A DNA stretch of 64,000 nt from Mesorhizobium sp. J428 (GTDB taxonomy: Bacteria > Pseudomonadota > Alphaproteobacteria > Rhizobiales > Rhizobiaceae). Below, in pieces: positions 46,169-61,876 of this stretch (position 1 is its first letter; every line of letters begins with the position of its first letter). Both the position numbers and the translations under genes were made by a program. Location of the stretch: assembly GCF_024699925.1 (NCBI RefSeq), contig NZ_JAJOMX010000001.1, forward strand, positions 2,332,001-2,396,000, read 5' to 3'. Under the pieces are notes generated by a model. The model was not told the origin of the DNA, did not search any database, and saw nothing but the letters and a program-made list of their open reading frames with translations.

Positions 46169-46336
46169 TCAGGGCTGGAAGGGATCGAATTCATGAATGA
46201 TGGCGGCGGTGTCGCCGTCGTATTCGTTCGCGGGAGCGACCGACAGGCTGCCGTCGCCGGCCCGGAAGATGATGATGGCGACCATGAGGGTGGTGGCGAG
46301 GCTGAAGGCGAAGGCGTGAGCGTCGTTGAGAGACAT
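46169..46336 (-). CDS. Small membrane protein (55 residues)
   Basis: Starts at ATG 46336: MSLNDAHAFAFSLATTLMVAIIIFRAGDGSLSVAP, one membrane helix and an acidic tail ending DTAAIIHEFDPFQP. It is one gene upstream of the membrane protein at 46024, same strand. AGGAG lies eight to nine bases before the start, inside the 3' arm of a hairpin. Function unknown. Confidence 0.65.
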   Translation of the reverse strand: MSLNDAHAFAFSLATTLMVAIIIFRAGDGSLSVAPANEYDGDTAAIIHEFDPFQP

Positions 46337-46346
46337 CGTTCCGGCT

Positions 46347-46384
46347 CCTGTCTGGAGGCGGGGGACCATCCCCCGCGCGACAGG
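46347..46384 (-). promoter_or_regulatory. Nested hairpin leader of the 55-residue gene
   Basis: Outer stem CCTGTC (46347-46352) with GACAGG (46379-46384), and inner stem GCGGGGGA (46358-46365) with TCCCCCGC (46369-46376), loop of three. On the minus strand it ends at the Shine-Dalgarno of the gene. Same shape as leaders near 50.4, 56.2, 59.9 and 61.55 kb. Confidence 0.65.
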
Positions 46385-46419
46385 CGCCCGATGTGTCCGG
46401 CCGAGGGCCGCAATCACCG

Positions 46420-46890
46420 CGGAGGCGAAGCCTCAAGGCCGCACGCTCGCGTAGCGGACCCTTCACGGGTTGATGGCGTCAGGCTCTCGGACGGACCAAG
46501 GATCAGCGCATTGGAAGCGGGGGATGGTGTTTCGTCCTCATCAGGAACGATCGGACCGCACTCGACGATGCCTCAGCCGTCGTGGTCGCATCGGCACCAT
46601 GTTCGAGTTCGGCACGACGCGGTCGCTCGGGTTCATCGTTGCTATGGCGCGAGTTGACCCGCTGCCGCAATCGGCTCGGCGGTCGGCCGCCCCCGGACCA
46701 GGCCTTCGCCGGCAGCGGCGCCGTGCCCGCCGGCCACACGGTGGTATTCGGCTGGATGCCTGCGACATAGAGAGCCTGAGGGCGGGCGGTGAGAACAGCC
46801 GTTCCGGCTGGCTCTTACTGAGCCTGAAAGAAGCACATTCCGTTACCGAAGCCGGCATGTTACATGAGTCTCACAGATAGGGAGATAACA
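46420..46890. other. Gap with no credible gene, left edge of the AT-rich island
   Basis: About 470 bases. Open frames here have arginine/proline/serine compositions typical of shadow translation in GC-rich DNA. The last ~50 bases become AT-richer and supply the ribosome site of the next gene. No repeat or terminator stands out. Confidence 0.5.
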
Positions 46891-46891
46891 C

Positions 46892-47077
46892 TTGCCGCGT
46901 GCCAGATCCAAGGATAAGCGCTCCGATGGGACACGCATGGTTCATGTCCGGCTGGCCCCGGAGCTTCACCGGCGTCTTCGGATTGTCGTGGCGGATGAAG
47001 ATACGTCCGTCCAGGAGTGGGTTGCACGCGCTATTGAAAAGGCGGTGGGGGAGAAATGGTCGAATATCTCGAATTGA
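46892..47077 (+). CDS. Ribbon-helix-helix small protein
   Basis: 61 residues from a TTG start, chosen because GGGAG lies seven bases upstream. Basic N-terminus, then RMVHVRLAPELHRRLRIVVADEDTSVQEWVARAIEKAV, a ribbon-helix-helix fold like antitoxins or small regulators. It overlaps the next gene by 22 bases. Probably autoregulates the three-gene island (inference). Confidence 0.75.
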   Translation: MPRARSKDKRSDGTRMVHVRLAPELHRRLRIVVADEDTSVQEWVARAIEKAVGEKWSNISN

Positions 47078-48447
47078 GCATAGATGAACTTCTACTTGAC
47101 GAAGACAACCCCCGTCTCGGTTCTGTACACAGCCAGTCGGCGGCGCTGGAGGCAATCGTTCACCTGAACGAAGCCCATTTCCGCAATCTAATGCTTAGCA
47201 TCAAGAACAATGGTCTTGATCCCGGAGACAGCCTCTATGTTATAGAGGCTGAGGATGGAGAAGATTTCGTCGCACTTGAAGGAAATCGGCGTCTCTCGGC
47301 GTTGATGGTGTTGAACACCCCTGACGTGCTGAATGGCACCGAAGTTCCCGATACGATCAAAAAATCGCTCGCTCGTGCAGCGTCCGGATTTGATCGAACG
47401 AAGATCGAACCAATTCGATGCGTTAAATTTGAACATCGTGAAGATGCCAACGAATGGATATATCGACGGCATACTGGAACAGCGGACGGCGAGGGCAGGA
47501 TACAGTGGGGGCCGCTAGAAATTCAGCGTTTCTCTGGCGACCGATCCATACTCGATGTCATCGACTTTGTAGGCCGCAACGCCGACTATTCGGATGACGA
47601 ATGGGAATCGACGAAGTCAGTGATTGAAAGCCGGAAATCCAGCAACCTTGCTCGCTTGCTCGAATCCGCACCGGGGCGCAAACATCTCAGCATTTCGATA
47701 TCAAATAACGGCGACGGCAAGACCCCTGAGCTGGGGTCGGAGCCCAAGTGGGCTCTCAAAGTCTTGCGTCGGATTATTGACGACGTGCGGGACGGAATAG
47801 TGGATTCGCGTGATCTCAACAAGGCATCGGATATCGAAGGTTACTTTCAGAACCTTCCCAAGGACCTTCAACCGCAAAAGGGCAAATCCGGCACCCCACG
47901 TCCCTTCAAGGACATTGACATCAAGAAGCGACCGACAGCGGCCACTACCACGAAAACCTCGACTAAACAGAAGACAAAAAGCACCCCGAAGGCTAGGACT
48001 ACGCTTGCACCCAAACGACACAGCTTCCACGCGCCGAACTCGACCAAAGGCGAGGCTCTACTTCGTGAAGCGGGAAACCTCGATGCAAACAGGTTTACCG
48101 TCTCTGCCGCTTTTGTGCTTCGCAGCTTCGTGGAGCTTGTGATTAACGACTACATGGATGCGAACAAGATCGCGAAGTCTGAAAAAAATGCCAAGGGAAC
48201 CGATGTCGAGTTGGACCTGACGCAGAAAGCAGACAGGGTCTTGAAGCATATAGTGGCGGCGGACAGTTCCAAGAATGCTGATCTGCGCGGCTTCCGCAAC
48301 AACATCCTGACGAAGACCTCAGCGACGTCAATTCAGTCGCTGAATGGGTTCGTCCATAACAAGTTCCAGATTCCAACGGCTGACGCGCTCCGGGCGGGTT
48401 GGGATTGCTCTGTCCCAATCTTTATTGCCGCCTATGGAAGCGTGTAA
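47056..48447 (+). CDS. ParB-like protein with a C-terminal HEPN-like helical domain
   Basis: 463 residues. An N-terminal ParB/Srx-like domain shows LELSIDELLLDEDNPRLGS and the GNRRLSAL signature (GNRR 76-79). Residues ~300-340 are a Lys/Thr-rich linker. The C-terminal ~120 residues (ANRFTVSAAFVLRSFVELVINDY... LRGFRNNI... SIQSLNGFVHNK) look like a HEPN/DUF4145-type helical domain; this is judged by pattern only. It is AT-richer than its surroundings. Its TAA overlaps the methyltransferase ATG by one base (TAATG), so the two are coupled. ParB-like domains can bind nucleotides, cut DNA or regulate. Function unknown. Confidence 0.7.
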   Translation: MVEYLELSIDELLLDEDNPRLGSVHSQSAALEAIVHLNEAHFRNLMLSIKNNGLDPGDSLYVIEAEDGEDFVALEGNRRLSALMVLNTPDVLNGTEVPDTIKKSLARAASGFDRTKIEPIRCVKFEHREDANEWIYRRHTGTADGEGRIQWGPLEIQRFSGDRSILDVIDFVGRNADYSDDEWESTKSVIESRKSSNLARLLESAPGRKHLSISISNNGDGKTPELGSEPKWALKVLRRIIDDVRDGIVDSRDLNKASDIEGYFQNLPKDLQPQKGKSGTPRPFKDIDIKKRPTAATTTKTSTKQKTKSTPKARTTLAPKRHSFHAPNSTKGEALLREAGNLDANRFTVSAAFVLRSFVELVINDYMDANKIAKSEKNAKGTDVELDLTQKADRVLKHIVAADSSKNADLRGFRNNILTKTSATSIQSLNGFVHNKFQIPTADALRAGWDCSVPIFIAAYGSV

Positions 48448-49389
48448 TGCCAGAAACACATCCATCGCTCACTCAAACCGGCCGTTACTCCCCACTTCGT
48501 TATCCCGGTGGCAAAGGAAAACTCGCACGCTTCATGAAGGAGATTGTGCGCTCAAACGGCTTGTCGGATGGCCGCTATGTCGAACCGTATGCGGGCGGCG
48601 CTGCGGTCGCCTGGGAACTCCTGCTTACCGGCGTGGTACGCCGCGTTTCAATCAATGACATCAGCCTGCCGATATTCGCATTCTGGCATAGTGTCCTGAA
48701 CTCGACAAATGATCTTTGCAGGATGATCCATGACTGCCCGCTGACCATGGATGAGTGGGACAAACAAAAGGAAATATTCCGACGACCGGATGAAGCCGAC
48801 AATCTCAGTCTAGGTTTCTCTTTCTACTTTTTGAACCGAACGAACCGATCTGGAATCTTGAATGGCGGCGTCATTGGCGGCCGTGGCCAGACCGGAAAAT
48901 GGAAAATCGACGCCCGTTTCAACAAACCCGACCTCATTTCTCGGATCGAGAAAATTGCATCGCTGAGGGATCGGATCGAGTTGACCAATCTCGACGCGGT
49001 GAAGTTCATCGAGATTAATGCCAAGCGTTTCGGGAATAGAACGCTTCTATATATCGACCCCCCCTTATTTCGACAAAGGACGTTTTCTATATTATGACGC
49101 CTACCGCCCTGAGGATCACGCTATTGTTGAAAAATCTGTCGCAAAACTGGAAGGGCTGAATTGGGTCGTTTCCTATGACGATGTGCGACCGATCCATGAT
49201 CTGTACGCCAAATCACCTTGGCTTCAATACACTCTTAACTATAGCGCGCGTAACGTCACGAGAGGACGAGAGGTGATGTTCTTTAGCAAAAACCTCATTG
49301 TTCCAGACGTGACTGCACCTTTGCACGAGATTGATCGCGACCTTCGTAGTCGGCCGAGACCCGTTTCCAGGCGCGAGTTTGCCGCCTAG
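48447..49389 (+). pseudogene. D12-class adenine-specific DNA methyltransferase (Dam-like), frameshifted
   Basis: Starts at ATG 48447: the FxGxK-type motif PLRYPGGKGKLARFMKE binds S-adenosylmethionine, followed by VEPYAGGAAVAWELL and the insert NRTNRSGILNGGVIGG typical of Dam. The catalytic motif IDPPY is broken: a run of seven C at 49058-49064 has one base too many, and the frame then reads RQRTFSIL and stops at 49097. The other frame gives YFDKGRFLYYDAYRPEDH and runs to 49389. Corrected length is about 313 residues. Likely methylates adenine to protect or mark DNA within the island. Confidence 0.85.
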
Positions 49390-49458
49390 CAGCCTGTCGG
49401 ACTCGGACTCCCCACGGTACATCGGTTCCGTCTGTGTTCACTCAGATTGTGGCGGCGC

Positions 49459-50394
49459 TCACGCGCCGCCGCTGCCGAACTTCCAGACCGGAATGCCAAG
49501 CTTGCGGGCCTTGTCGGCGAGATTGTCCTGGATGCCGGTGCCGGGGAACACCATCACGCCGATCGGCAACACCGCCAGCATGGAGTCGTTGCGCTTGAAC
49601 GGCGCCGCCTTGGCGTGACGGGTCCAGTCAGGCTTGAAGGCGACCTGCGGCACCTTGCGCTGGTCGGCCCAGCGGGCGGCGATGCGCTCGGCGCCCTTCG
49701 GCGATCCGCCGTGCAGCAGCACCATGTCGGGGTGTTTGGCGTGGACCTGATCGAGCTTGGCCCAGATCAGGTGGTGGTCATTGAACTCGAGTCCGCCGGT
49801 GAAGGCGATCTTCGGTCCCGCCGGCAGCAGCACCTCGGTCTCGGCCCGGCGCTTGGCGGCGAGGAAATCGCGGCTGTCGATCATCGCCGAGGTCATGGCG
49901 CGATGGTTGACCATCGATCCGCTACGCGGCCGCCAGGATGACCCGGTGTGGCGGTCGAAGTGCTCGGCGGCCTGGTCGCGCATCAGCTCGAAGGCGTTGC
50001 GGCGCTCGATCAGGGTCTGCCCTTCGGCGGTGAGGCGCTCCAGTTCGACCGACTTGACCTCCGAGCCGTCCTGTTCGCGCTGGCCGCGGCGCTGCGCCTG
50101 CTCGTTGTCGTCGAGCTCGCGCTCGATCCGGCCGGTGGCCCGATGGAAGAGGTTGACGGTCGACCAGAGGAGGTCATCGAGGTCGGGCTCGAGGCGGGTG
50201 TCCTCGAGTGTGGCGATCAGGGCGTCGAAGATATCGGCGATGGCCCCGGCGACGATGTTCCCCTCCGGGAGTGGCCTCGGATCGGGTTCGTCCTGGAAGG
50301 GGCGGTATCCGTAGAGCTGGAGTTCGGTGAGGACATGGTCGGTGGGGGATGAGGCGTGGTGAGGCTCGAAGCCGTCGTCGTGTTCGCTCGTCAT
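49459..50394 (-). CDS. DUF2493 (SLOG-like) protein
   Basis: 311 residues. Acidic N-terminus and a coiled region (IERELDDNEQAQRRGQREQD), then the DUF2493 domain at about 190-305: GPKIAFTGGLEFNDHHLIWAKLDQV, MVLLHGGSPKGAERIAARWADQR and PIGVMVFPGTGIQDNLADKARKLGIPVWKFG. SLOG-type Rossmann folds bind nucleotides or NAD-like ligands. AAGGAA lies seven bases before the ATG. Standard gene of such elements, function unknown. Confidence 0.88.
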   Translation of the reverse strand: MTSEHDDGFEPHHASSPTDHVLTELQLYGYRPFQDEPDPRPLPEGNIVAGAIADIFDALIATLEDTRLEPDLDDLLWSTVNLFHRATGRIERELDDNEQAQRRGQREQDGSEVKSVELERLTAEGQTLIERRNAFELMRDQAAEHFDRHTGSSWRPRSGSMVNHRAMTSAMIDSRDFLAAKRRAETEVLLPAGPKIAFTGGLEFNDHHLIWAKLDQVHAKHPDMVLLHGGSPKGAERIAARWADQRKVPQVAFKPDWTRHAKAAPFKRNDSMLAVLPIGVMVFPGTGIQDNLADKARKLGIPVWKFGSGGA

Positions 50395-50404
50395 GGGATG
50401 TTCC

Positions 50405-50447
50405 TTCGTCGGTTTGACCGCGACCCTCGCGGCCTTCTGGCGACGAA
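50405..50447 (-). promoter_or_regulatory. Nested hairpin leader of the DUF2493 gene
   Basis: Outer stem TTCGTCG (50405-50411) with CGACGAA (50441-50447), inner stem CCGCGA (50418-50423) with TCGCGG (50427-50432). It begins 11 bases upstream of the start codon and its arm adjoins the AAGGAA ribosome site. Confidence 0.6.
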
Positions 50448-50488
50448 AGCCGTCGGGCGGTCCGGACCTGCACCCGGAGCGTCAGCGC

Positions 50489-50550
50489 AGGGCCGAAGCG
50501 GCAGCGGAGGATGGCGAAGGCCGGCCATTTTGTTTCGCGATGGAAAGCGC
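50489..50550 (-). repeat. Shared upstream element, copy B
   Basis: AGGGCCGAAGCGGCAGCGGA, GGATGGCG, then TTTTGTTTCGCGA and a GAGCG-containing imperfect palindrome (GCGCTCCTCTTGGAGCGC). Matches copy A at 45080-45140 and lies the same distance from its gene. The remaining non-coding 50551-50718 shows no gene. Confidence 0.6.
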
Positions 50551-50718
50551 TCCTCTTGGAGCGCGCCGGAAAATAGCCGGGCGCAGCCATTGCCGGTCCG
50601 GGCCGCTTGACGGCCGATCGCCCTCTCGAAGGCCGGGTCGCGGTCCCCTCCGATGCAAGGGGAGCAGCCTCGTGCGATGCGGCGACGGCTGCCGCTGCCC
50701 CGCGCTTGCCCCTTCCGG

Positions 50719-51762
50719 CTATGCCGCCAGGGCGAGAAAACGGGCGACGTCCTCCGGGGCGAGCTGCTGGCGGACCGCTGCCCGCAGAGCGTCGATGCCG
50801 AAGGTGCGGAGATCCTCGTTGAAGTCCCCGAGCACCGGCGACAGCACGATCGCCTCGATCCCGGCGGCGTTCGCCCGCTCGATCAGGCTGTCGCGCGCGC
50901 CATCGCCGGCCGGATCGTCGTCGCGGACGATGTAGAGTCTGCGGAGTGCCGCCGGGAACAGGACGGCGGCAAGGTGGGCGGCCGAAAGCGCGGCGACCAT
51001 CGGCATGTGGGGCAGGACACAGTGCAGCGACAGGATCGTCTCGATGCCTTCTCCCGCCGCTATCACGTCATGCGCCACGCTGAACCGGACCGCATGGCCG
51101 AGAAGGTTGCCCATTGCCCGCCTCGGTGTGTCGATCGGCGCCTTGCCGCCGCCATCGGCGGAGAGCCAGGTGCGGTGCGCGCCGGTGATCCGGCCTGCGA
51201 GGTCGGTGACGGAAGCGATCATCGCCGGCCAGGTCTCGGTCGGGGAATGCTCGTCGGGCCGATAATAGCAGCGCGGGTGGAAGCGGAGCGATCCGGCTCC
51301 GTGCAAAGCCGTGATGCCGCGCTTCCGTAAGTACGCTTCTGCGACTGTGCCCGTAATCGGCTGCGACATGGCGAAGAGTCGGCGTGCGGCCTCCGGCGAT
51401 CCGGTTGGCGCGCACGTCGGCCTATGCCTCGGTTGCGGCGCCGGTTCGGAATGCGGCAGATTGAGGAAAGTCCGCGCCTCGTCGGCGACGTCCTTGAAGT
51501 CGACCAGCCCGCAGCTCTCGCGAATGACGTCGAGCAGGTCGCCATGCTCGCCGGTAGCGGCGTCGGTAAATTTGCCCGCCGCGCCCTTGCCAGACTCCGG
51601 TCCCTTGAGCCGGACGAACATGGAGCGACCCGGCGTGCCCTGCACATCGCCGACCAGCCAGTAGCGGCCCTCGCGATGACCGGCGGGCAGATAGTGCCGG
51701 CACACCGCCTCGGCCTGGCGAGCAAGGCGCCGCGCCAGTTCGGAAGCGTCGTGGCGAGCCAT
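50719..51762 (-). CDS. Toprim domain protein (primase-like, DUF7146 type)
   Basis: 347 residues. N-terminal ~130 residues contain the FVRLKGPESGKGAAGKFTDAATGEHGDLLDVIRE zinc-binding-like region without classical cysteines. The toprim fold is seen in HDVIAAGEGIETILSL, AALSAAHLAAVLFP and LRRLYIVRDDDPAGDGARD. It resembles the toprim proteins next to strawberry-notch-like genes in these elements, perhaps a primase for the incoming strand. Begins one base after the helicase stop. Confidence 0.88.
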   Translation of the reverse strand: MARHDASELARRLARQAEAVCRHYLPAGHREGRYWLVGDVQGTPGRSMFVRLKGPESGKGAAGKFTDAATGEHGDLLDVIRESCGLVDFKDVADEARTFLNLPHSEPAPQPRHRPTCAPTGSPEAARRLFAMSQPITGTVAEAYLRKRGITALHGAGSLRFHPRCYYRPDEHSPTETWPAMIASVTDLAGRITGAHRTWLSADGGGKAPIDTPRRAMGNLLGHAVRFSVAHDVIAAGEGIETILSLHCVLPHMPMVAALSAAHLAAVLFPAALRRLYIVRDDDPAGDGARDSLIERANAAGIEAIVLSPVLGDFNEDLRTFGIDALRAAVRQQLAPEDVARFLALAA

Positions 51763-54700
51763 TTACGCAGCCTCCCGCTCGCCGATCCGCCCGACCGGGT
51801 AACGCTCCATGATCCGTGCCAGGATGGCGGGGCCGGTCGCGTCCGTCGGCACGAACATGCGCAAGGTCCACGATATGATCTCGTGGAACAGCCCATAGGC
51901 GGCCAAGCGATCGCGCATGGTATCGGTGAACCCGCTGAGTTCGATGCGATGGGCGCCCATGACCCGGACCCGGCGTAGTTGGAGCCCTTCAGCAAGGTCG
52001 AGGATCGTCTGGCCGTCCATCAGGGCCGCGAAGGCATCATCCGGCGTCAGCGTCGTGGCGCCGGTGGCGGTCGCTCCCGCCACCCATGCCGGCGAAACCT
52101 TGCGGCCGACGACACGCTCGCCGTCATCGGTCTGAAGCCGATAGACCCGCGTCGACTCGTTTGGCAGGCGCTTCCAGATCGGCAACAGCAGCCCGGCGAC
52201 GACGTGGATGGTGCTGTCGGAGAATTCCGGAACCTCGGCCAGCTCGGCATTCCATGTCTTGGCGAAACTACCTTCGTCGGCCTCGATCCAGTGCGTCTCG
52301 CCCATCATCTTCACCGGGATATTGTGCGCTTCCATCGGCCGGATCAGGCGGACACGCCGTTCGATCTCGCCATCGTCGAGCATCACGCTGCTCGCCGGAA
52401 TCTGAACGGCGGCCCGGCCCGAACGCTCGTTGACGAGCAGCACGGCGCGACGATCAGAGAGGTGGGCAAGGGCCTGGTCGAGCGCGACCGGCCGGTTGCG
52501 TTCGCGTTGGGTGATGGTCAGCAGGCGGGTTTCAGCCCCAGTGCCGGGATGGACATGGATGGTGCGCCGGCCGGTGACGACGAAGCTCTCGGCCTTGAGC
52601 GTCTCCAGCCCCATGTCATAGGCTCCGCAAGCGATGGCGCCTTCGATCCGGGCATTGAGAAGCTGCTCGAACGCCGTGAACAGGATGCCTTGAAGTTCGA
52701 TGGTGAGCGCCAGCAGCCGGTTGAGGAAGGTGGTGATCGGCGGCAACTCGTCCTTGATGCCGTTCGCGTCCATGAGCGAAAGGCCTGTGGCATCCTCGAA
52801 CATCTGAAGCGAGCAGCCCTCGACCTTGCCGCGCGCCAGCAGCAGGTAGAGCTGCCGCAACGCGTCGCGGGCATAGGGACTTTCCAGATTGTCCTCGGGC
52901 CGGAACAGGCCTTGGCCGCCGGTCTGGCGTTGGCCGCGCGTGATCGCGCCGAGCGTGTCGAGCCGCCGCGCGATCGTCGACAGGAAGCGCTTCTCGGCCT
53001 TCACGTCGGTTGCGATCGGCCGGAAGAGCGGCGGCTGCGCCTGATTGGTGCGGTTCGTCCGCCCCAGGCCCTGAATGGCGGCGTCGGCCTTCCAGCCCGG
53101 TTCCAGGAGATAGTGGACCCGCAGCCGCTGGTTCCGCGCCGACAATTCGGCATGGTAGCTGCGGCCCGTCCCGCCCGCGTCGGAGAAGACGAGCACACGC
53201 TTCTGATCGTCCATGAAGGCGGCCACATCGGCGAGCGAGGCCGAGGCGGCACGGTTCTCGACCATGAGGCGGTCGATGCCGTCCGCGCCGGTCTTGCGCA
53301 GGATGCGGCGCGAGCGGCCGGTGACTTCCGCCACCGTGCCGGTGCCGAAATGCTGCAGGACCTGATCGAGCGCGCCGGGAACGGGCGGCAGGGAGGCGAG
53401 CTTCTCGATCAGGCGGTCACGGCGGGCGACGGCCTCGCGGCTTTCGACCGGCTGGCCGTCGCGGAAAACCGGCCGGGACGACAGGTTGCCCTCGCTGTCG
53501 GTGAAGGGTTCATAGAGCTGCACCGGGAAGCTGTGCTGCAGGTACGACAGCATGCGTATTCGCGCGGCGTGATATCGACCCGGACGTCGTTCCATTCCTC
53601 GGTCGGGATTTCCGCCAACCTGCGCTCCATCAGCGCCTCGCCGGTCGAAACGATCTGGATGACCGCGGCATGGCCCTCCGCCAGATCGCGCTCGATCGAG
53701 CGGATCAGCGTCGGTGTCTTCATCGAGGTCAGGAGATGACCGAAGAAGCGCTGCTTGGTGGATTCGAACGCGGAACGGGCCGCCGACTTCGCCTGCCGGT
53801 TCAGCGTGCCATGCTCGCCGGTGATGTTGGCGGCCTGCATCGCCGCGTCGAGATTGTTATGGATGATGGCGAAGGCCCCGGCATAGGCGTCGTAGATGCG
53901 CGTCTGCTCCTGCGTGAGTTGGTGCTCGACCAGCTCATATTCGACGCCGTCATAGGAGAGCGAGCGCGCCATGTAGAGGCCGAGCGCCTTGAGGTCGCGC
54001 GCCAGCACTTCCATCGCCGCGACGCCGCCCGCCTCGATCGCCTCGACGAACTCGGCCCGGGTCGCGAAGGGGAAATCCTCGCCGCCCCAGAGGCCGAGCC
54101 GCTGCGCATAGGCGAGATTGTGGACGGTGGTCGCGCCCGTGGCGGAGACGTAGACGACACGGGCATTGGGCAGTGCGTGCTGGAGGCGGAGGCCCGCGCG
54201 TCCCTGCTGCGAGGCGGCCTGCTCGCCGCGGTCACCCTTGCTGCCAGCGGCATTCTGCATGGCGTGGCTTTCGTCGAAAATGATCACTCCGTCGAAGGAC
54301 TTTGCATTCCCTGTCGCGGCTTCGCCGCTTCCCGCCTCTTGGCCCAACCATTCGACGATCTGTTTGACCCGGGAAAGCTTCTCGCCACGCTCGTCGGAGC
54401 GCAGCGTGGAATAGGTGGTGAATAGGACGCCTTGCGTGAGCGTGATGGGCTTGCCCTGTGGGAAGCGGGAAAGCGGCGTCACCAGCAGCCGCTCCATGCC
54501 GAGCGCCGACCAGTCGCGCCGGGCGTCCTCGATGAGATCGGCCTTGGAGATCCAGACCGCCTTGCGACGCCCTTGCATCCAGTTGTCGAGGATGATGCCG
54601 GCCGACTGGCGGCCCTTGCCGGCGCCGGTCCCGTCACCGAGCATGAAGCCGCGCCGGAAACGCACGGCATTCGGCGCATCGTCGCGCGCGGCCGAAACGA

Positions 54701-56158
54701 TGTCGAAGGTCTCGTCCACGGTCCAGGACCCGGCGAGGAATTCGCCATAGGCATCGCCGGCATAGATCACCGTCTCGAGCTGGGCGTCCGACAGCAGGCC
54801 ATCGGTGACGATGTTGGCCGGCAGGCGTGGCCGGTAGCTCGGCTTCGGCGGCGCGACCGAGGCCATGGCCGCCGACTGCACCAGCTTGGTGGGGTGGGCC
54901 TGCGCGCCGAGAATACGGATCGACTGAAGAACGTATTCCTCATAGATCGCATCCGTCAGCCGGGTGTCCTCGGGCGGCGTCCAGTCCACCGTCTCATAGT
55001 CGAGCTCGACGCCGACGGGCTCGGTGAGGCTGGTCGGAACGGGAGTGGATGGCTGTGAGGCAAATCCCCGGGCGGGGCGCGGAGCGACGGTATGCGCGGC
55101 GGCGGGAATGGCGGAAACGCGAGTCGAGGCCGCGACCGGCAGTCGCGCCGGAACATGGGCGTCGATCCAGCCGAACAGCGTGGCGACGTCGGGCGCGACG
55201 CCTGGCGGGACCGGGAACACCGCCGGATCATCGGCGGGCAGCTTGTCGATGACGGTCAAGCGCGTATCGATGGTGGTGCCGTGCCTGGCATAGACCGAGC
55301 CGTCGATGGCGGCGGTGAACACCACGCGCCCGCGCGCCTGCAAGCGGGTGAATGCCGCAGTCCAGGCCGGATTGTCGGGAGCGAAGTTCGCGCCGGTGAT
55401 CGCCACCAGCCGCCCGCCGTCAACCAAGCGCGCCAGGGCCGAGGCGACATGACGATAGGCGGCGTCGGCCATCCGGCCCGAGACGTTCGCCATCACCGAA
55501 AACGGCGGGTTCATAAGCACGACGGACGGCACGATGCAGGCAACGAGATGATCGTCGATCTGCGCCGCGTCGAAACGGGTGACGGGAATGGCCGGAAAGA
55601 GGTGGATGAGAAGACCGGCGCGGGTCTCGGCCAGTTCGTTCAAGACCAGCGATCCGCCCGCGATCTCGGCCAGGATGGCGAGCAGGCCGGTGCCGGCAGA
55701 GGGCTCCAGCACGCGGTCGGCGGAGGTCATCGCCGCGGCGGTTAGGGCCGCAAGGCCGAGCGAGATCGGGGTCGAAAATTGTTGGTAGGTCTCGCTCTCT
55801 GCCGAACGGCGCGTGTGGGTGGGAAGAAGGCCGGCGATCTTCGTCAGCATCGGCAGCATGGCCGCCGGAGAGCCGGCTTTGCGGAAAAGCGCCTTTCCGT
55901 ATTTGCGCAGGAACAGCACGGTCGCCGCCTCGCAGGCGTCATAGGCGGTCTTCCAGTCCCAGGCGCCGGTCGCATCGGAGGCGCCGAAGGCCGTCTCCAT
56001 GGCGGCGCGCAGGATGCCCGCGTCGATGCGCTGGCCGCGTTCGAGATGGGGAAGGAGAATCCGCGCCGCGTCGGCGATGCGAGCGGCCGGATCGGCGGTG
56101 GGAACAAGCGGGAGGGACGTGGCCGCGCGGGCGGCCGCGGAAGCGGAAACACTGGTCA
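51763..56158 (-). pseudogene. Methyltransferase-strawberry notch-like helicase, frameshifted
   Basis: Starts at ATG 56158 (MTSVSASAAARAATS). The N-terminal methyltransferase has LEPSAGTG 151-158 and NPPF 217-220. The helicase part has FMLGDGTGAGKGRQSAGII, VWISKADLI, and VIIFDESHAM, then the C-terminal helicase SNO-type ALMERRLAEIPTEEWNDVRVDI. Near 53575 one base is missing: the first frame ends at 53409, and the next (MLSYLQHSFPVQLYEPF) continues to 51763. Restored length is about 1465 residues, the full size of the family. Large polyfunctional proteins like this are hallmark genes of these elements. The upstream reading frame to 56342 is out of register. Confidence 0.85.
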
Positions 56159-56185
56159 TGGAGGGAACCTCGAGGAGAGCGGAAC

Positions 56186-56237
56186 GGGACGAGCCGGCTG
56201 GCGCTCTCTCTCGACCGCACCGGCTCAAACCCGTCCC
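56186..56237 (-). promoter_or_regulatory. Nested hairpin leader of the methylase-helicase gene
   Basis: GGGACG (56186-56191) pairs with CGTCCC (56232-56237) and GAGCCGG (56191-56197) with CCGGCTC (56220-56226), a continuous stem of about 12 base pairs enclosing a purine-rich loop. It stands about 30 bases upstream of the start, overlapping the 3' end of the DUF4326 gene. Confidence 0.55.
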
Positions 56238-56564
56238 GGCCGTCCTCTCCCTCTCGCCGCCGCCGCCTTCACCGCGCGCCACCACGCGATGCGCTCTTCG
56301 CGCGTCGCGTTGGCGAGCCGCAGCAGCAGATCGCCGTGGCACGTACGCGGCGCGCAGAAGCAGACGAGATCACGGCCGCGCAGTTCGTCGAGTTCGCGCA
56401 AGAGATGATGCCGATCGGCCAGCCAGCGCTCGTACTTCGCGATGACGGCGGCGCGGTCGCCGTCGGGGCCGATCCGGAACGGATTGCCCCATTTCGAGCC
56501 GCGGCCAATGTAGACGGCGGCCGCCGGCACGCCCACGTGATGCCTGTTGAGTACCCCTGCACAT
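56225..56564 (-). pseudogene. DUF4326 family protein, frameshifted at codon 3-4
   Basis: ATG 56564 has a strong AGGAGG eight bases upstream. The start reads MCR, then a run of four G (C on the given strand, 56554-56557) has one base too many: the ATG frame gives nonsense (GTQQ...), while removal of one G gives MCRVLNRHHVGVPAAAVYIGRGSKWGNPF, the DUF4326 start. It continues to 56225 with the domain end DLVCFCAPRTCHGDLLLRLAN. About 112 residues when restored. Function unknown. Confidence 0.82.
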
Positions 56565-56706
56565 CCAATCGCCTCCTGATCCCGTTGCGGCGGACTGGCG
56601 ACGGGACGCGGCCGAGGCTCGCCGGTCACGCATCGCGAGCGATGCGGAAACGGCTCGTCCGTTGACCGGCGCGCCGCCGCGTCCAGACAGGCCACGACGC
56701 GCGGGA

Positions 56707-56949
56707 TCAGGGAGGCGGCTCGTCCGGCAGGGTTGCGGACGGCGGCACGTAGGCGTCGAAGGGATTGCCGCCGGCGAGATGGCCGAACGGCGCGAACACG
56801 AAGTCCGCGCCGTCGCGACCGACGGCACAGATGACGTAGCGCGGCTCTCCGGTGATGGCGTCGGCGCACTCCATGAGCGCGAGGTTGCCGTCCGCCGCCG
56901 CCCGGAGCAGCGTTTCGAAATTGGCACTTGCGTGATGGGGGATGCTCAT
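56707..56949 (-). CDS. DUF6117 family protein
   Basis: 80 residues: MSIPHHASANFETLLRAAADGNLALMECADAITGEPRYVICAVGRDGADFVFAPFGHLAGGNPFDAYVPP, which matches my memory of DUF6117, a conserved element family without a known role. ATG 56949 overlaps the previous gene stop by four bases; longer frame upstream is antisense-like. The 142-base gap to the DUF4326 start has no gene. Confidence 0.8.
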   Translation of the reverse strand: MSIPHHASANFETLLRAAADGNLALMECADAITGEPRYVICAVGRDGADFVFAPFGHLAGGNPFDAYVPPSATLPDEPPP

Positions 56950-57371
56950 GACGCACCCCGCCTTCCGCGCCCGGCCGACAAGGTGCGGTCGAGCCAGCCA
57001 TCGGTCGCGACCCACGCGACGGTCTTGCGGCGCCCGAGATCGAGCACTTGGGCGCCGCCTCGGAAGGCGTCGACGCGTGGGCGCGAGCAGGTATTCGCCC
57101 ATTGGAAGCCCCAGCGCCCCGAGAGGCCAAACTCCGCTGCGCAGCGGAGCACAAAGTCGATGACGGCCTGCGGATCGCCGGTCGCGTCATCGCGAATCCA
57201 GAGCTGCGCGCCGCCGTGCTCAGGCTGGATGGACAGGAGAAAGGCTTCGGAGGGCGGGTCCTCCGCAGCGTTTTCCTCCATCATGCGGGTGTAGAGGTCG
57301 AGCGCACGCGCGGCGTTTTTCGGCGTGCCGACATCGAGAAGACAAGAGAAATGCGTGAAGTAATCGGCCAT
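56946..57371 (-). CDS. Conserved element protein of unknown function
   Basis: 141 residues from ATG 57371 with CAGGAG seven bases upstream: MADYFTHFSCLLDVGTPKNAARALDLYTRMMEENAAEDP, then AQLWIRDDATGDPQAVIDFVLRCAAEFGLSGRWGFQWANTCSRPRVDAFRGGAQVLDL. I recognise it as a recurring protein of such elements, without domain knowledge. Forms an operon with the DUF6117 gene. Confidence 0.78.
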   Translation of the reverse strand: MADYFTHFSCLLDVGTPKNAARALDLYTRMMEENAAEDPPSEAFLLSIQPEHGGAQLWIRDDATGDPQAVIDFVLRCAAEFGLSGRWGFQWANTCSRPRVDAFRGGAQVLDLGRRKTVAWVATDGWLDRTLSAGRGRRGAS

Positions 57372-57392
57372 GTCAGGCTCCTGAAACGAGAA

Positions 57393-57414
57393 AGCCCGGC
57401 GCGGTGGCCGGGCT
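57393..57414 (-). terminator. Hairpin terminator candidate
   Basis: AGCCCGGC and GCCGGGCT, a perfect 8-base stem with a six-base loop, followed on the minus strand by TTTCTCGTTT. Lies between the stop of the upstream 73-residue gene and the next start, so it may attenuate transcription within the block. Confidence 0.55.
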
Positions 57415-57441
57415 GGTGGGGCGATTTGAGAGGGATGCGGG

Positions 57442-57663
57442 TTAGTAGCCGAACTCCCATGATGGCCAGGACTGGCCGTCATCGGCGGCCTTCACCGCTT
57501 CCTTGAGATATTCGGCGTGCCCTTCCACAAAGGTCGGGTTTTCGACGGGTGTTTCGTCGATCACCGTCACGCCGCAGACGAGGCCGTCTTCGACCTCGAC
57601 ATGGACGGGCACGAGATATTGGAAGACGACGCGTCGCGGCGCCGCCGAGCTTGGCTTCGTCAT
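57442..57663 (-). CDS. Small conserved element protein (73 residues)
   Basis: From ATG 57663: MTKPSSAAPRRVVFQYLVPVHVEVEDGLVCGVTVIDETPVENPTFVEGHAEYLKEAVKAADDGQSWPSWEFGY. Beta-rich, one cysteine. Follows the ParB gene by 61 bases on the same strand. No recognised function. A longer frame upstream reads in a different composition and was not used. Confidence 0.7.
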   Translation of the reverse strand: MTKPSSAAPRRVVFQYLVPVHVEVEDGLVCGVTVIDETPVENPTFVEGHAEYLKEAVKAADDGQSWPSWEFGY

Positions 57664-57724
57664 CGGGGTGCTCCGTGATGGTGGGAATTGGCGGAGCGGT
57701 TGAAGCCGCCCCGCCACTCTTGGG

Positions 57725-59866
57725 TCACTCGGCTGCGATCATCGCCGGCTCGTCGGGGTCGGTTTCCTCGTCACCCGCTTGCTCGGCCTCGTCGTCCGAG
57801 AGGAATGCGGGCAGCGCCTCGTCGCTTTCGCCGCCGCTTGGATCGGCGGTCGCCGTCGCGTCCGCATCAGCGGAGCGCAGCGGCTCGGGCAGCCAGCCGG
57901 TGTCTGCCAGCAGCCGCTCGGCTTCCTTCGCCATATCGCCCTTCTTCAGGTGATCGATGAGCTGGGCGGCCTGTTCGCCCCGGGCCTCGCGCACGGCTTC
58001 CAGGATGCGCGCCTTGGTGACACGGCCGAGATAGTTCTCGACGGTCGGCTTCCAGCCTGCCTCCACCATGTCGAGCCCACAGGCACGGGCCAGCCGGTCA
58101 GCCTGGCCAAGGCGGCGTTCGAGCCCATGCTGCGAGAGGCCGGAGCCGCCATAGCGGTCGACCTTCTCATGGAGGGCGTTGACGCCATAGCTGACGCAAT
58201 GGGCGAGCATCGCCATGCGGCTGGCGTCATCGAGCGCGTCGAGCCAGTCCCACAGGGCCTGATCGTCCTGCGGGATGTCGGTTTTCCACGCTTCCTGCCG
58301 CTCGTTCACCGACTTCGCGGACGGACTGTCCTTCAGGTCGGCGGACTGGGCGGGGAAGAAGACATGGTGGATGGAGGCCTCCAGGCAGCCACCAGCGCTC
58401 GACATGCGCTGGAAGGCATCGGTGACGAGCTTGTGCAGGAGCGCCGTCATGGCGACGTGGGGATTGTTGGCCATTGCGTCGCGCAGTGCCAGCGTGCGGT
58501 GCGCGGTCAGCTCCATCACCAGACGATCGGGCAGCGGCTTGATGACGTCGTCCTCGTCCTCCTCCGGCTCGACGGGTTGGCCGCCGATGGTGATGACGGC
58601 GCGCTGGACGGAAGGCGCCGCAGGATCGCCCGTGTTGGCCGGTGTGTCTTCGCCATCCTCGCCATCGACGGCGGTCGGCGCCTCGTCCTCGGGGCGGACA
58701 TAGCCGCGATCGACGAGGAGCGAGCCGTCCGCATCGATGCTGACGAAGACGCCCGCGCGAACGATGTCGGCCGGATCATATTGGACCGGTCGGCTCTCGA
58801 AATTGGCGAGCGCCGTCTCGATCTCGCCGAGCCGCTCGTCCACCTCGTCGGGCAGCTCGTCCGCGCCGTCATATTCGGCCTCCAGCTTCGCATATTCGGC
58901 TTTCAGGGCGTCGATCGTCGCCTGCTCATCGGCGGTAATGTCGATCGGCGTGCCTGCGAGTTCGCGCAGGCCGCGGGCGTTGTCGTAGGGAAAGCTGACG
59001 GCGACCTCGATCCACTTCCAGCCTTCATTGGCGATCTCGTCGGCCATGATCTTCAGCTTCTCGGCGGCCAACCGGTCGAGTAACGCCGCATCCTGCAGCC
59101 AGCCGCCATCGTCGGACTGGAAAAGGTCGCGCAGGACGATGCCGCCCGCCGCCTCATAGGCGTCGATCCCGACGAACACGGCGCGCTTGTCGGAGGCGCG
59201 CACCGTCGATTCCGTCAGCATGCGGCGGATCTGATAGGGCTCCTTCGACCAGCTGTTGCGGGTCGCCTCCCAGACCTGTTCCTGGCGGGCATGGTCGGAG
59301 GAGACGGTGAAGGCCATCAGCTGCTCGAGCGACATGCCGTCCTCGGCATAGGTTTCGAGCAGCGTCGCCGAAACGGACGCGAGCCGCAGCCGCTGCTTGA
59401 CGACGTTGACGGGCACGAAGAAGGCGGCCGCGATCTCGTCCTCGGACTGGCCCTTTTCGCGAAGGGTCTGAAAGGCGCGAAACTGGTCGAGCGGATGGAG
59501 CGGGGCGCGCTGGCAGTTTTCGGCGAGCGAATCGTCCTCGGCGAGGATGCCGGCCGCTGGATCGCGGACCACGCAGGGCACGGGCGCGGTCTTCGCTAAA
59601 CGCTTCTGCTTGACCAGCCGTTCGAGCGCCCGGAAGCGGCGGCCGCCGGCCGGGATCTCGAACATGCCGGTTTCCTTGTCTTCGGCATCGAGCACAGGGC
59701 GGACATTGAGGCCCTGAAGCAGGCCGCGCCGGGCGATGTCCTCGGCCAGCTCCTCGATCGAGACGCCGGCCTTCACGCGCCGGACGTTCGACTGGCTGAG
59801 CACCAGCTTGTTGAAGGGGATGTCGCGCGAGGACGACAGGGTGATCTTCTGAACGGCAGTAGCCAT
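57725..59866 (-). CDS. ParB/RepB/Spo0J-family protein
   Basis: 713 residues from ATG 59866 (MATAVQKITLSSSRDIPFNKLVLSQSNVRRV). The ParB nuclease-like domain shows GLLQGLNVRPVL, IPAGGRRFRALERLV, DSLAENCQRAPLHPLDQFRAFQTLREKGQSEDEIA and the HTH RLRLASVSATLLE. The long remaining part is acidic and helical with no recognised domain, ending in an Asp/Glu-rich tail. Such large ParB proteins are common on plasmids of Rhizobiales and may act in segregation or as a DNA-entry protein. Distinct from the short ParB-like protein of the AT-rich island. Confidence 0.9.
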   Translation of the reverse strand: MATAVQKITLSSSRDIPFNKLVLSQSNVRRVKAGVSIEELAEDIARRGLLQGLNVRPVLDAEDKETGMFEIPAGGRRFRALERLVKQKRLAKTAPVPCVVRDPAAGILAEDDSLAENCQRAPLHPLDQFRAFQTLREKGQSEDEIAAAFFVPVNVVKQRLRLASVSATLLETYAEDGMSLEQLMAFTVSSDHARQEQVWEATRNSWSKEPYQIRRMLTESTVRASDKRAVFVGIDAYEAAGGIVLRDLFQSDDGGWLQDAALLDRLAAEKLKIMADEIANEGWKWIEVAVSFPYDNARGLRELAGTPIDITADEQATIDALKAEYAKLEAEYDGADELPDEVDERLGEIETALANFESRPVQYDPADIVRAGVFVSIDADGSLLVDRGYVRPEDEAPTAVDGEDGEDTPANTGDPAAPSVQRAVITIGGQPVEPEEDEDDVIKPLPDRLVMELTAHRTLALRDAMANNPHVAMTALLHKLVTDAFQRMSSAGGCLEASIHHVFFPAQSADLKDSPSAKSVNERQEAWKTDIPQDDQALWDWLDALDDASRMAMLAHCVSYGVNALHEKVDRYGGSGLSQHGLERRLGQADRLARACGLDMVEAGWKPTVENYLGRVTKARILEAVREARGEQAAQLIDHLKKGDMAKEAERLLADTGWLPEPLRSADADATATADPSGGESDEALPAFLSDDEAEQAGDEETDPDEPAMIAAE

Positions 59867-59881
59867 CGGGATTTTCTCCGC

Positions 59882-59921
59882 GACGGGCGCCGAGAGCTTC
59901 TCTCTCGACTTCCAACCCGTC
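59882..59921 (-). promoter_or_regulatory. Nested hairpin leader of the ParB gene
   Basis: Outer stem GACGGG (59882-59887) with CCCGTC (59916-59921), inner stem CGAGAG (59891-59896) with CTCTCG (59902-59907). On the mRNA the GGAG ribosome site follows four bases after the stem. Its outer stem is identical to that of the ArdC leader while the inner stem differs but still pairs. Confidence 0.7.
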
Positions 59922-60028
59922 ACGAAAATCCCCTCGGCCCTCTTCCTCTCGGCTAGCGGCGAAAGCGAAGGCCGAGGGGCGGAGAAGCGAGGATCGGCGG
60001 CCGGCGCGCAGGAGACGCCGGTGTCCGG

Positions 60029-60556
60029 TCAGTGGCCGGAACGGGGACGCCCCGCCACGGCGGCGAGAACATCGTCCAGCAATCCTTCAGCCGCCCGCAA
60101 CGCCCGTTCAGGCGATATTGGCGCCGGGTCGCGTCTCGCCAGTTCTCGGACGCGATGGCAGCGATAATAGGGCGACAAAACCCGCGTCAGCATTCGCACG
60201 TCCGGATGACGTCGATGAAATCCGAGCCGCTCCGCGGCGGCGAGCGCTTCGACCAGATCGTGCCGGACCTCGCGCCTGCATTGGTCATCGTTCCACCCCC
60301 GGAAATGCAGATAGGATTTCAGCGATAGCTCGACGGCGCATCCGATGAGATGAAAAAGGACTTCGCGAGAATGGGGATCGCCCGCCGCCACGAGGTGGCG
60401 CGCCCCGGCGAGGAACTCAACCGCATTGTCGAAGAGATACTTCCCCCGCCAATACGTCGAGGAGTGCCACGCCCGCGCGGACACATGACCGGCCTCGGGG
60501 GATGACGGGGATTCCTGCCGGAAGCTTCGCCGGCCCGATGGAGACGGCGCGCGCAT
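60029..60556 (-). CDS. HEPN-domain-like protein
   Basis: 175 residues from ATG 60556, which overlaps the ArdC stop by one base (TGATG). Disordered N-terminus, then LFDNAVEFLAGARHLV, LFHLIGCAVELSLKSYLHFRGWND and CRREVRHDLVEALAAAERLG, the helix pattern of HEPN domains with an R-x4-H-like motif. HEPN proteins are often RNases in toxin-antitoxin or defence systems. No nucleotidyltransferase antitoxin of the MNT type is adjacent. Function is inference. The gap 59922-60028 shows no gene. Confidence 0.65.
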   Translation of the reverse strand: MRAPSPSGRRSFRQESPSSPEAGHVSARAWHSSTYWRGKYLFDNAVEFLAGARHLVAAGDPHSREVLFHLIGCAVELSLKSYLHFRGWNDDQCRREVRHDLVEALAAAERLGFHRRHPDVRMLTRVLSPYYRCHRVRELARRDPAPISPERALRAAEGLLDDVLAAVAGRPRSGH

Positions 60557-61518
60557 CAAGCCGCCTCCCGCTCGCCGGCGTCGGCGGACACCGGAGCAAG
60601 CCGTTCGTCTTCGGGCAGAAAGCCGAGCAGGAAATCGGCAGCCTTGCTGGCTTGCGACGCTGCGCGGACGATGGCGCGATTGTCCTCGCGCAGAACCTCG
60701 GCCCAGGAGCCGATGTAATCGGCGTGCCGCACGGTCGGCACGATGCCGAGCGCAGCACAGCAGAATGCCGCTGAAATCTCGGCTATCAGCTCCTCGAAGG
60801 CGCATTTCTTCGTGCCAAAGGAACCGGAGAGGTCGCGGTTCAGGCGATGCGGCGCCCCGCTGGCATGGGAGCATTCATGCAGGGCGGTCCGATGCCAGTT
60901 GATGGGCTCGAAGAAAGCCTGAGGCGGCGGGACCATGACATAATCGTGCGCCGGCACATAGAAGGCACGGTCGCCGCCGATCCGGAAATCGATCCCGCTC
61001 GCCTTGATCAGCGCATCCACCTTCGGCTCGATCAGGCCGGGTTCGGGCGGTGGCGCGACAATGGCGAGGTCGCCTGGCAGGCCCTCGCATTGCGCCAGGT
61101 TGAAAACCGTGAAGCGCTTCAGAAACGGGATCGCCTGGGCTTTTTCACCAGTCTCCCGCGACCGTTTCTTCTCGTCGTCGGGAATGAATCGATCAGCATA
61201 GACGACCGTCGTTCCGCGTTCGCCCTTACGCACATTCCCGCCGAGCGCGAGCGCCTGCCTGAAGGTGAGCCAACTCTGGCCGGGGAAGCCATGCTCGATC
61301 ACAGCACCCCAGAGGATCAGCACATTGATGCCGGAATAACCTCGGCCGGTGGCGGCGTTCTTCGGCATGGCGAGCGGCGCCTTCGCCGCCGCCGTGCCCC
61401 AGGGCTGGATCCAGGGCAGCCGGCCGGCCTCCAGCTCGGCGAGGATCTTTCCTGTGATTTCGTCATAGAGGCTCGTCCGGTCGGAGCCGGAACGGGCGCG
61501 AACGGCATGTCTGGACAT
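60556..61518 (-). CDS. ardC: ArdC-like antirestriction protein
   Basis: 320 residues. The N-terminal ssDNA-binding ArdC domain (LYDEITGKILAELEAGRLPWIQPWG, YSGINVLILWGA, LTFRQALALGGNVRKGERGTTVVYA) is followed by a zincin-like metallopeptidase domain with HECSH at 214-218 (HExxH) and GSFGTKKCAFEELIAEISAAFCCAALGI. ArdC protects the incoming single strand from restriction. GGAG lies eight bases before ATG 61518. Coupled to a HEPN-like gene. Confidence 0.93.
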   Translation of the reverse strand: MSRHAVRARSGSDRTSLYDEITGKILAELEAGRLPWIQPWGTAAAKAPLAMPKNAATGRGYSGINVLILWGAVIEHGFPGQSWLTFRQALALGGNVRKGERGTTVVYADRFIPDDEKKRSRETGEKAQAIPFLKRFTVFNLAQCEGLPGDLAIVAPPPEPGLIEPKVDALIKASGIDFRIGGDRAFYVPAHDYVMVPPPQAFFEPINWHRTALHECSHASGAPHRLNRDLSGSFGTKKCAFEELIAEISAAFCCAALGIVPTVRHADYIGSWAEVLREDNRAIVRAASQASKAADFLLGFLPEDERLAPVSADAGEREAA

Positions 61519-61531
61519 CGCGGGTCTCCGC

Positions 61532-61675
61532 GACGGGCGCCGGAGGCCTTTCCTCCAGCCTTCAACCCGTCACGGCAAACCCGGTCCGCACTCTCACTCT
61601 CGGGGCGTTGCGGGGTTCACCCCGCAGAAGGGGTCGGCCGAGACCGTGGCTCGGCCGCAGGGGAAGGCTTTCCCC
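61532..61675 (-). promoter_or_regulatory. Hairpin series upstream of ardC
   Basis: Four stems in 145 bases. Nearest the gene: GACGGG (61532-61537) with CCCGTC (61566-61571) and inner GGAGG (61542-61546) with CCTCC (61552-61556). Then a palindrome TGCGGGGTTCACCCCGCA (61609-61626), CGGCCGAG (61635-61642) with CTCGGCCG (61650-61657), and GGGGAA (61660-61665) with TTCCCC (61670-61675). The rest of the 61676-61825 gap has no gene. Confidence 0.65.
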
Positions 61676-61825: not shown

Positions 61826-61876
61826 ATGATACAAAACCTCAGAGTATAGAATCCATATACCGAGTATTTGTATCAT
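61826..61876 (+). promoter_or_regulatory. AbiE promoter with autoregulatory inverted repeat
   Basis: ATGATACAAA (61826-61835) and TTTGTATCAT (61867-61876) form a 10-base perfect inverted repeat flanking the AT-rich presumed promoter. The right arm overlaps the antitoxin start codon. AbiEi antitoxins are known to repress their own promoter by binding two inverted repeats, which fits this layout. Confidence 0.75.

Follow-up and report, generated by a model that had tools for sequence, protein, structure and literature searches.

Why should several accessory genes of a probable mobile element each begin with a nested hairpin just before the ribosome-binding site? The question is raised by a 64,000-nucleotide (nt) stretch of the 5.88 Mb genome of Mesorhizobium sp. 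J428 (positions 2,332,001 to 2,396,000 of contig NZ_JAJOMX010000001.1; G000:C1:2332001-2396000 in our numbering), which is referred to as the window. An earlier sequence-only reading had pointed out such hairpins upstream of genes for an ArdC-family anti-restriction protein, a ParB-like protein, a Strawberry-notch-like helicase, a DUF2493 protein and a protein of 55 amino acids (aa), and had proposed either translational control by RNA or promoters formed on single-stranded DNA. The analysis favours the former: the five leaders are probably cis-acting structured 5′ untranslated region RNAs that control the translation of a mobile-element module conserved in Alphaproteobacteria. Structure, covariation, sense-strand folding, position and co-occurrence are established; regulation of the five genes by the leaders is what these sequences suggest.

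All five hairpins were found, on the minus strand, at 46347-46384, 50405-50447, 56185-56238, 59882-59921 and 61532-61571. A nested hairpin by itself is weak evidence, because a lax scan of the 64 kb returns 213 per strand, and the case for the hairpins therefore rests on shuffles and conservation. Against dinucleotide shuffles, the z-scores of the minimum free energy of the window leaders were −6.18 (ArdC), −4.47 (ParB-like), −4.32 (helicase), −3.13 (55-aa) and −1.63 (DUF2493). Mean z-scores of non-redundant homologues were −3.99 for ArdC (n=11), −4.09 for ParB-like (n=29) and −2.99 for DUF932-like genes (n=7), which share one leader type, and −2.01 for helicase (n=21), −1.49 for DUF2493 (n=28) and −2.32 for 55-aa leaders (n=9); the control, 32 other gene starts on two plasmids, gave −0.40. 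The five hairpins are not due to chance, and they sort into four leader types. Their original description needs amendment in two respects. The hairpins were said to end beside the Shine-Dalgarno sequence, which is not so for the helicase gene, where a CGCTCTCC tract intervenes. Moreover, those of the DUF2493 and 55-aa genes are the mere 3′ tips of much longer structured RNAs, and the DUF2493 hairpin in isolation folds close to its shuffles. The search for covariation over related elements, which had been named as a check, found covarying pairs in all four types, with none of 500 shuffles reaching the observed values on all or most measures.

The first type (type I) is an element of about 100 nt common to the ArdC and ParB-like genes and also present upstream of DUF932-like genes, the DUF932 assignment being a weak Pfam match (18.7 bits; cut-off 23). 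It consists of a near-invariant purine box, AGAGNNAGAG, a spacer of near-constant length and a nested hairpin (P1/P2) that includes part of the Shine-Dalgarno sequence. In alignment A1 the consensus continues from the box and spacer through CCGUGACGGG, an inner stem with a loop that is mostly AGAGG, and CCCGUCGCGGAG. A1 contains 92 of 95 harvested leaders, two rows of helicase/antirestriction type and one near-duplicate (L004) having been dropped. In this alignment, 98.5% of the cells are paired and two-sided changes occur in seven of 18 pairs, six of them in the inner stem, which the harvest pattern left free while fixing the outer stem; none of 500 shuffles reached any of five measures. The outer GACGGG/CCCGTC stem shared by the ParB and ArdC leaders, with compensatory differences in the inner stem, had been noticed in the window and holds across the 92 leaders. 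A second alignment, A2, was assembled from matches to a covariance model of the type I leader (R1) and not directly from the hairpin pattern. It comprises 52 matches (48 distinct, from 37 genome loci, the window's own copies included), in which 13 of 18 pairs covary and 95.8% of the cells are paired, again with 0/500 shuffles on any of five measures, the alignment being fitted to the model.

In a redundant set of 183 leaders, the distance from the box to the downstream TGACGGG is 26-28 nt in 182 leaders and 30 nt in the remaining one, and the ATG follows TGACGGG by 48-58 nt. This constancy is partly built in, because the harvest accepted only starts 45-75 nt after P1 and took as the box the best match, ties being resolved towards 28 nt. 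Little is conserved at a fixed distance upstream of the box. Within the window, 0.28 matches to the box pattern are expected per strand; the minus strand has three, one in each leader of type I or II, and the plus strand has one. A hairpin carrying the purine box in its loop (P0) was considered as a general feature and rejected: the upstream arms of ArdC leaders pair no better than swapped arms (31 of 100 swaps as good), and for DUF932-like leaders 83 of 100 swaps were as good (n=5), while ParB-like leaders lean towards P0 (2 of 100).

Among 286 ArdC relatives in named genomes, the best 80 were retained, and R1 matches directly before the ArdC start in all 80, many of which had trained the model. 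A strict pattern of outer stem and box fits 75 of them; the remaining five, judged by eye, all have a G·U pair in P1, and one (L080) moreover starts at a contig end. Across the class, R1 was found at E<=0.001 in 28 of 385 genomes, including one doubtful match of 26.3 bits that lacks the box (G255). In a draw from the phylum it was found in 34 of 398 genomes, all of them the own genome or members of the same family, order or class; a further 25 genomes, from other classes of the phylum, gave no match, an empty result that carries little weight by itself. Phage records searched with the ArdC leader gave no match either. The type I leader and DUF2493 (E<=1e-40) occur together in 21 genomes (28 and 29 of 385, respectively; Fisher p 2e-22). 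The genome of strain J428 has nine R1 matches at E<=1, two in the window and seven on contigs C4 (112551-116493) and C5 (6449-177958), where they precede DUF932-like, ParB-like and unassigned genes. Some of the C4 leaders, judged by eye, seem to have a stable upstream hairpin where the purine box would be.

The helicase leader belongs to a second type (type II) that is related to type I: it keeps the purine box and the purine loop, the latter on a larger hairpin. A MAFFT alignment of 22 helicase leaders gave nearly no consensus structure (three pairs), and a seed of 18 similar leaders with model-guided alignment gave one. The model built from these 18 leaders (alignment A9, some of them pattern-harvested), R3, matches 25 of 30 helicase loci taken from 40 genomes selected for R1 matches; of the five loci without a match, three hold later parts of genes. 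Alignment A10 was fitted to the model and has 33 matches in 35 sources, a single type I leader among them; 14 of its 20 pairs show double changes and 92.0% of the cells pair, with 0/500 shuffles. In the same fitted alignment, GAG of the box pairs with a downstream CUC in 94.9% of the cells. The purine box as a general part of a helix was nevertheless rejected, as L211, L213, L217 and L224 keep the box without a CTCTC tract. R3 also matches upstream of PF03230 antirestriction genes (L065, L070, L197 and L202), a family that we take to be ArdB/KlcA. On plasmid pCHQ1, a type II leader (L122:22416-22518) stands before a 333-aa gene without a Pfam match, whose start presumably resembles PAPS-reductase-like proteins.

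The two remaining types are larger. The DUF2493 gene is preceded by a conserved RNA of about 260 nt, of which the hairpin noticed earlier is the 3′ end. From 51 DUF2493 loci, 32 non-redundant leaders were obtained, and 22 of them form alignment A6, ten divergent leaders or leaders with long insertions having been excluded by choice. RNAalifold yields 31 pairs for A6, 17 of them with double changes, and 93.7% pairing (0/500 shuffles); one helix, columns 123-127 with 374-378, covaries at all five pairs. A strict core pattern of this RNA occurs in 7 of 385 genomes.

For the 55-aa gene, alignment A7 (12 sequences, five obtained by pattern and seven by protein homology) gives a four-way junction with a long closing helix and, downstream of this, a stem that includes the Shine-Dalgarno sequence. 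Of its 49 pairs 11 show double changes, and 95.2% of the cells are paired; no shuffle out of 500 matched four of the five measures, and 32 of 500 did so for the count of further pair types. In both the DUF2493 and the 55-aa leader, a conserved multi-helix fold thus lies upstream of the start codon, a trait by which riboswitches are recognized. The 55-aa protein was found in 7 of the 40 genomes selected for R1 matches, and in the class the model of its leader (R2) matches in 5 of 270 genomes. With blastn, at least part of the element was found in 260 plasmid records, 164 of which are typed as conjugative, and 59 cover 80% of the query. Seven plasmid loci were inspected, two of them on account of the ParB-like leader and five on account of the 55-aa element; R2 matches in all seven. 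A related protein of 55-58 aa follows the match in five of the seven by script, and in pTi_Tun180 its beginning was seen by eye; in pAt it was not seen. In three rhizobial plasmid copies (pAt, pTi_Tun180 and S. meliloti Rm41), the Shine-Dalgarno stem reads CCAUC/GAUGG in place of CCUGUC/GACAGG. No R1 match was found within the stretches examined of N. hamburgensis plasmid 2, pAt, pTi_Tun180 and S. meliloti Rm41 accessoryA, and a search of E. coli genomes with the core of the 55-aa RNA gave no match. In pTi_Tun180, the 55-aa leader RNA (L240:11951-12135) is located near traC, in a region with three copies of traC/traD/traG.

The alignments also bear on which strand folds. Counted on the sense strand, G·U and A·C cells number 321 and 14 in A1 (of 1652 pair cells), 156 and 14 in A2, 91 and 13 in A10, 59 and 18 in A6, and 18 and 11 in A7. 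Because shuffling the partner letters of A1 gives on average 369 G·U and 59 A·C cells, A·C is the depleted class. By pairs, any G·U occurs in 14 of the 18 in A1 and any A·C in six. On the template strand, the G·U pairs of A1 become C·A mismatches, including those at the almost fixed pairs of columns 48-93 and 56-86. This asymmetry suggests that folding takes place on the sense strand, as it would in mRNA, and argues against the folded template strand that an Frpo-like promoter requires, the wobble alone being compatible also with folded sense-strand DNA. Within 130 nt upstream of the box, a −35/−10 pair with at least 9 of 12 positions of the E. coli consensus was found in none of 46 ArdC leaders and in one of 52 ParB-like leaders, bearing in mind that alphaproteobacterial promoters can be weaker. 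By eye, the hairpin arms in A1 are GC-rich stems without TATAAT or TTGACA.

To assess Shine-Dalgarno masking, the six bases most like a Shine-Dalgarno sequence were taken in each leader, and their probability of being paired was averaged. The mean is 0.89 for ArdC, 0.92 for ParB-like and 0.84 for 55-aa leaders, compared with 0.67 in the control (p 1e-6, 1e-8 and 0.002, respectively). Because only these pair above the control, masking is supported for just three of the five leaders. Translational control, as proposed in the sequence-only reading, is thus favoured by covariation, position at the start codon, sense-strand G·U and Shine-Dalgarno pairing in three of five leaders; masking by the helicase and DUF2493 leaders is not supported. 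An unlikely alternative is that the folds affect mRNA stability, transcription attenuation or ribosome standby instead of masking the Shine-Dalgarno sequence. The purine-rich box, which looks like a ribosome-binding sequence, would suit such a role, as would the leaders of helicase, DUF2493 and DUF932-like genes, in which pairing does not exceed the control; the strong pairing in the ArdC, ParB-like and 55-aa leaders and the compensated stem of the last argue against it.

Alternatively, the conserved parts could be sites on double-stranded DNA, with a DNA-binding regulator, for instance the ParB-like protein, attaching to the inverted repeat and to the box, which is a direct repeat of AGAGNN. 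A nearly invariant box at a nearly constant distance (26-28 nt in 182/183, partly built in) with a spacer of variable sequence would fit this explanation, which we regard as quite improbable: the inner stems change in sequence and yet covary, something that binding of a protein to DNA would not call for, G·U and A·C are asymmetric, and the hairpin leaders of the DUF2493 and 55-aa genes showed no box. Single-stranded DNA promoters of the Frpo/ssi kind, by which the incoming strand would fold and RNA polymerase would read ardC and other genes before second-strand synthesis, are very improbable: the anti-restriction genes do share one orientation, like the anti-defence genes of leading regions in the accessible part of PMC11541004, and would be expected to be needed at entry, but each G·U of the sense strand would be a C·A mismatch on the template (321 G·U vs 14 A·C cells in A1, with the same direction in A2, A10, A6 and A7), an E. 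coli-type −35/−10 match occurs in just 1 of 98 leaders, and the hairpins adjoin the start codon, so that a start at the hairpin base would leave almost no leader.

Several points weigh against the preferred reading, that is, RNA leaders controlling translation. Shine-Dalgarno pairing is not above the control of 0.67 in DUF932-like (0.67), DUF2493 (0.65) and helicase (0.57) leaders. The harvest pattern behind A1 fixes part of P1, and the constant spacing partly reflects the harvest as well. Kinship among the sequences inflates the cell counts, the difference between G·U and A·C is small in A7 (18 vs 11), and A2 and A10 follow the models to which they were fitted, A6 and A7 yielding their own structures. 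The divergent helicases L223 and L226 lack an R3 match, and 13 distant DUF2493 loci were dropped because of an unclear start or no similar leader. The metallopeptidase/ArdC-type genes of N. hamburgensis plasmid 2, pTi_Tun180 and S. meliloti Rm41 have no R1 match up to E 0.1, the first two being cut by the stretch examined, so that the pTi_Tun180 leader may fall outside it. Apart from the single E. coli-type match in 98 leaders, no promoter was found upstream of the leaders.

Read along the minus strand, towards lower coordinates, the genes concerned come in the order ArdC, ParB-like, Strawberry-notch-like helicase, toprim, DUF2493/YAcAr and 55-aa gene (Table 1). Farther downstream on the same strand are RovC-like, RPA, ParA, signal peptidase, transglycosylase and DUF3363 relaxase genes. 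The one-strand order is also annotated on pCHQ1 of Sphingobium indicum UT26S, with extra genes interspersed, and on MesoLj131b4 and pMLb. Judging by gene content, this is probably an accessory or establishment module of a mobile element. In the window, the helicase is encoded by two overlapping open reading frames (51763-56159, minus strand); elsewhere, most matches lie in a single open frame of some 1440-1560 codons. On the opposite strand, an insertion (47056-49389, plus), containing a 463-aa open reading frame without a Pfam match and further open reading frames up to 49389, separates the DUF2493 and 55-aa genes, which adjoin each other on MesoLj131b4 and pMLb. At the other end, an AbiEi/AbiEii-type pair (type IV toxin-antitoxin; 61875-63354, plus) adjoins the ArdC leader.

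Table 1. Genes of the module and their leaders in the window, in order along the minus strand.
Feature	Position	Strand	Evidence and remarks
Type I leader of ardC (purine box, spacer, nested hairpin, Shine-Dalgarno, ATG)	61516..61614	-	R1 98.0 bits (row used to build R1); alignment A1
Purine box AGAGTGAGAGTG of the ardC leader	61589..61600	-	near-invariant in 55 non-redundant leaders
P1/P2 nested hairpin of the ardC leader	61528..61575	-	3′ arm overlapped by Shine-Dalgarno GGAG, 61526-61529
ArdC-family anti-restriction gene (ArdcN + MPTase-PolyVal)	60556..61518	-	Pfam PF08401 1.2e-41, PF18818 1.2e-47
Type I leader of ParB-like gene	59864..59963	-	R1 98.8 bits (row used to build R1); box 59938-59949, hairpin core 59882-59921
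ParB-like gene, 713 aa	57725..59866	-	Pfam PF02195 2.7e-6
Type II leader of helicase gene	56157..56259	-	R3 110.9 bits (row used to build R3); box 56243-56254, hairpin 56186-56237
Strawberry-notch-like helicase gene, N-terminal part (AAA_34)	53409..56159	-	Pfam PF13872 7.6e-118; continued by 51763-53595
Toprim gene	50719-51762	-	
Long structured leader RNA of DUF2493 gene	50392..50660	-	alignment A6 and covariation; hairpin 50405-50447 is its 3′ end
DUF2493/YAcAr (SLOG family) gene	49459..50394	-	Pfam PF10686 8.7e-34; annotated DUF2493 on named plasmids
Four-way-junction leader RNA (~190 nt) of 55-aa gene	46334..46525	-	R2 186.1 bits (row used to build R2); hairpin 46347-46384 is the Shine-Dalgarno arm
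55-aa small protein gene	46171..46338	-	no Pfam match; homologues on named plasmids at the same place in the module

As to how such leaders might work, in type I the P1/P2 hairpin would pair part of the Shine-Dalgarno sequence, and folding would lower translation. The purine box, at its near-fixed distance, and the purine-rich apical loop are a likely docking site for one shared putative trans-acting factor, either a protein or a small RNA; as both features recur in type II, the same factor may serve both types. The DUF2493 and 55-aa leaders, with larger folds whose 3′ arm lies beside the Shine-Dalgarno sequence, may be sensors or protein-binding sites. The purpose would be to time the establishment genes around entry into a new cell. 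A more far-reaching model, which is tentative and on balance doubtful, is an RNA regulon for establishment: a single putative factor would read the AGAG box and purine loop on the ArdC, ArdB-type, ParB-like, DUF932-like and helicase mRNAs and repress their translation in settled hosts. A recipient free of the factor would then experience a burst of anti-restriction, that is, zygotic induction at the level of translation, and the two riboswitch-like RNAs (DUF2493 and 55-aa) would sense the state of the host.

Comparison with known systems places the leaders among cis-regulatory RNA leaders, which are a known kind; here they occur as a set on one establishment module. Like translation-regulating riboswitches and protein-binding mRNA leaders, they show a conserved covarying fold directly before the start codon, with the Shine-Dalgarno sequence in one arm (ArdC, ParB-like and 55-aa). 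Unlike these, the window copies have no Rfam 15 match, and four leader types occur within one mobile-element module. The Rfam 15 search, made with the window copies only (window 40000-64000), gave no match up to E 5, the best sub-threshold scores being 8.1 and 14.2 bits. No description of these leaders was found in the open literature searched, and an earlier one may exist in a 2017 survey of 224 candidate RNAs or in subscription journals. By context, the closest relative is the STAXI motif (RF01728), described in the accessible part of PMC2864571 as a structured element near anti-restriction and DNA-handling genes, for which its authors weighed single-stranded DNA against RNA and favoured RNA. 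STAXI, as far as that part goes, consists of repeated pseudoknots in Enterobacteriales, whereas the leaders described here are alphaproteobacterial, precede start codons as nested hairpins or junctions, and have no Rfam match. The radC motif (RF01754), which the same part of PMC2864571 lists for Proteobacteria with marks read as likely RNA and likely cis-regulatory, is similar in these respects, but no Rfam match to RF01754 was found in window 40000-64000. Frpo/ssi elements likewise are hairpins upstream of anti-defence genes on conjugative elements, according to the accessible part of PMC11541004; they differ in that their structure imitates double-stranded DNA and includes −35, −10 and UP sequences, whereas here such motifs occur in 1 of 98 leaders and the sense strand folds.

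The early expression of conjugative entry genes has so far been explained at the level of transcription, by Frpo single-strand promoters in the accessible part of PMC11541004. The shape kept across many species suggests that the translation of five probable settling-in genes, one of them anti-restriction, may be switched by RNA structure. Of the four leader types, whose window copies match no Rfam 15 family, two are large enough to be sensors. If the reading is true, widespread leader RNAs on anti-restriction and DNA-handling genes would place part of the timing of entry at translation.

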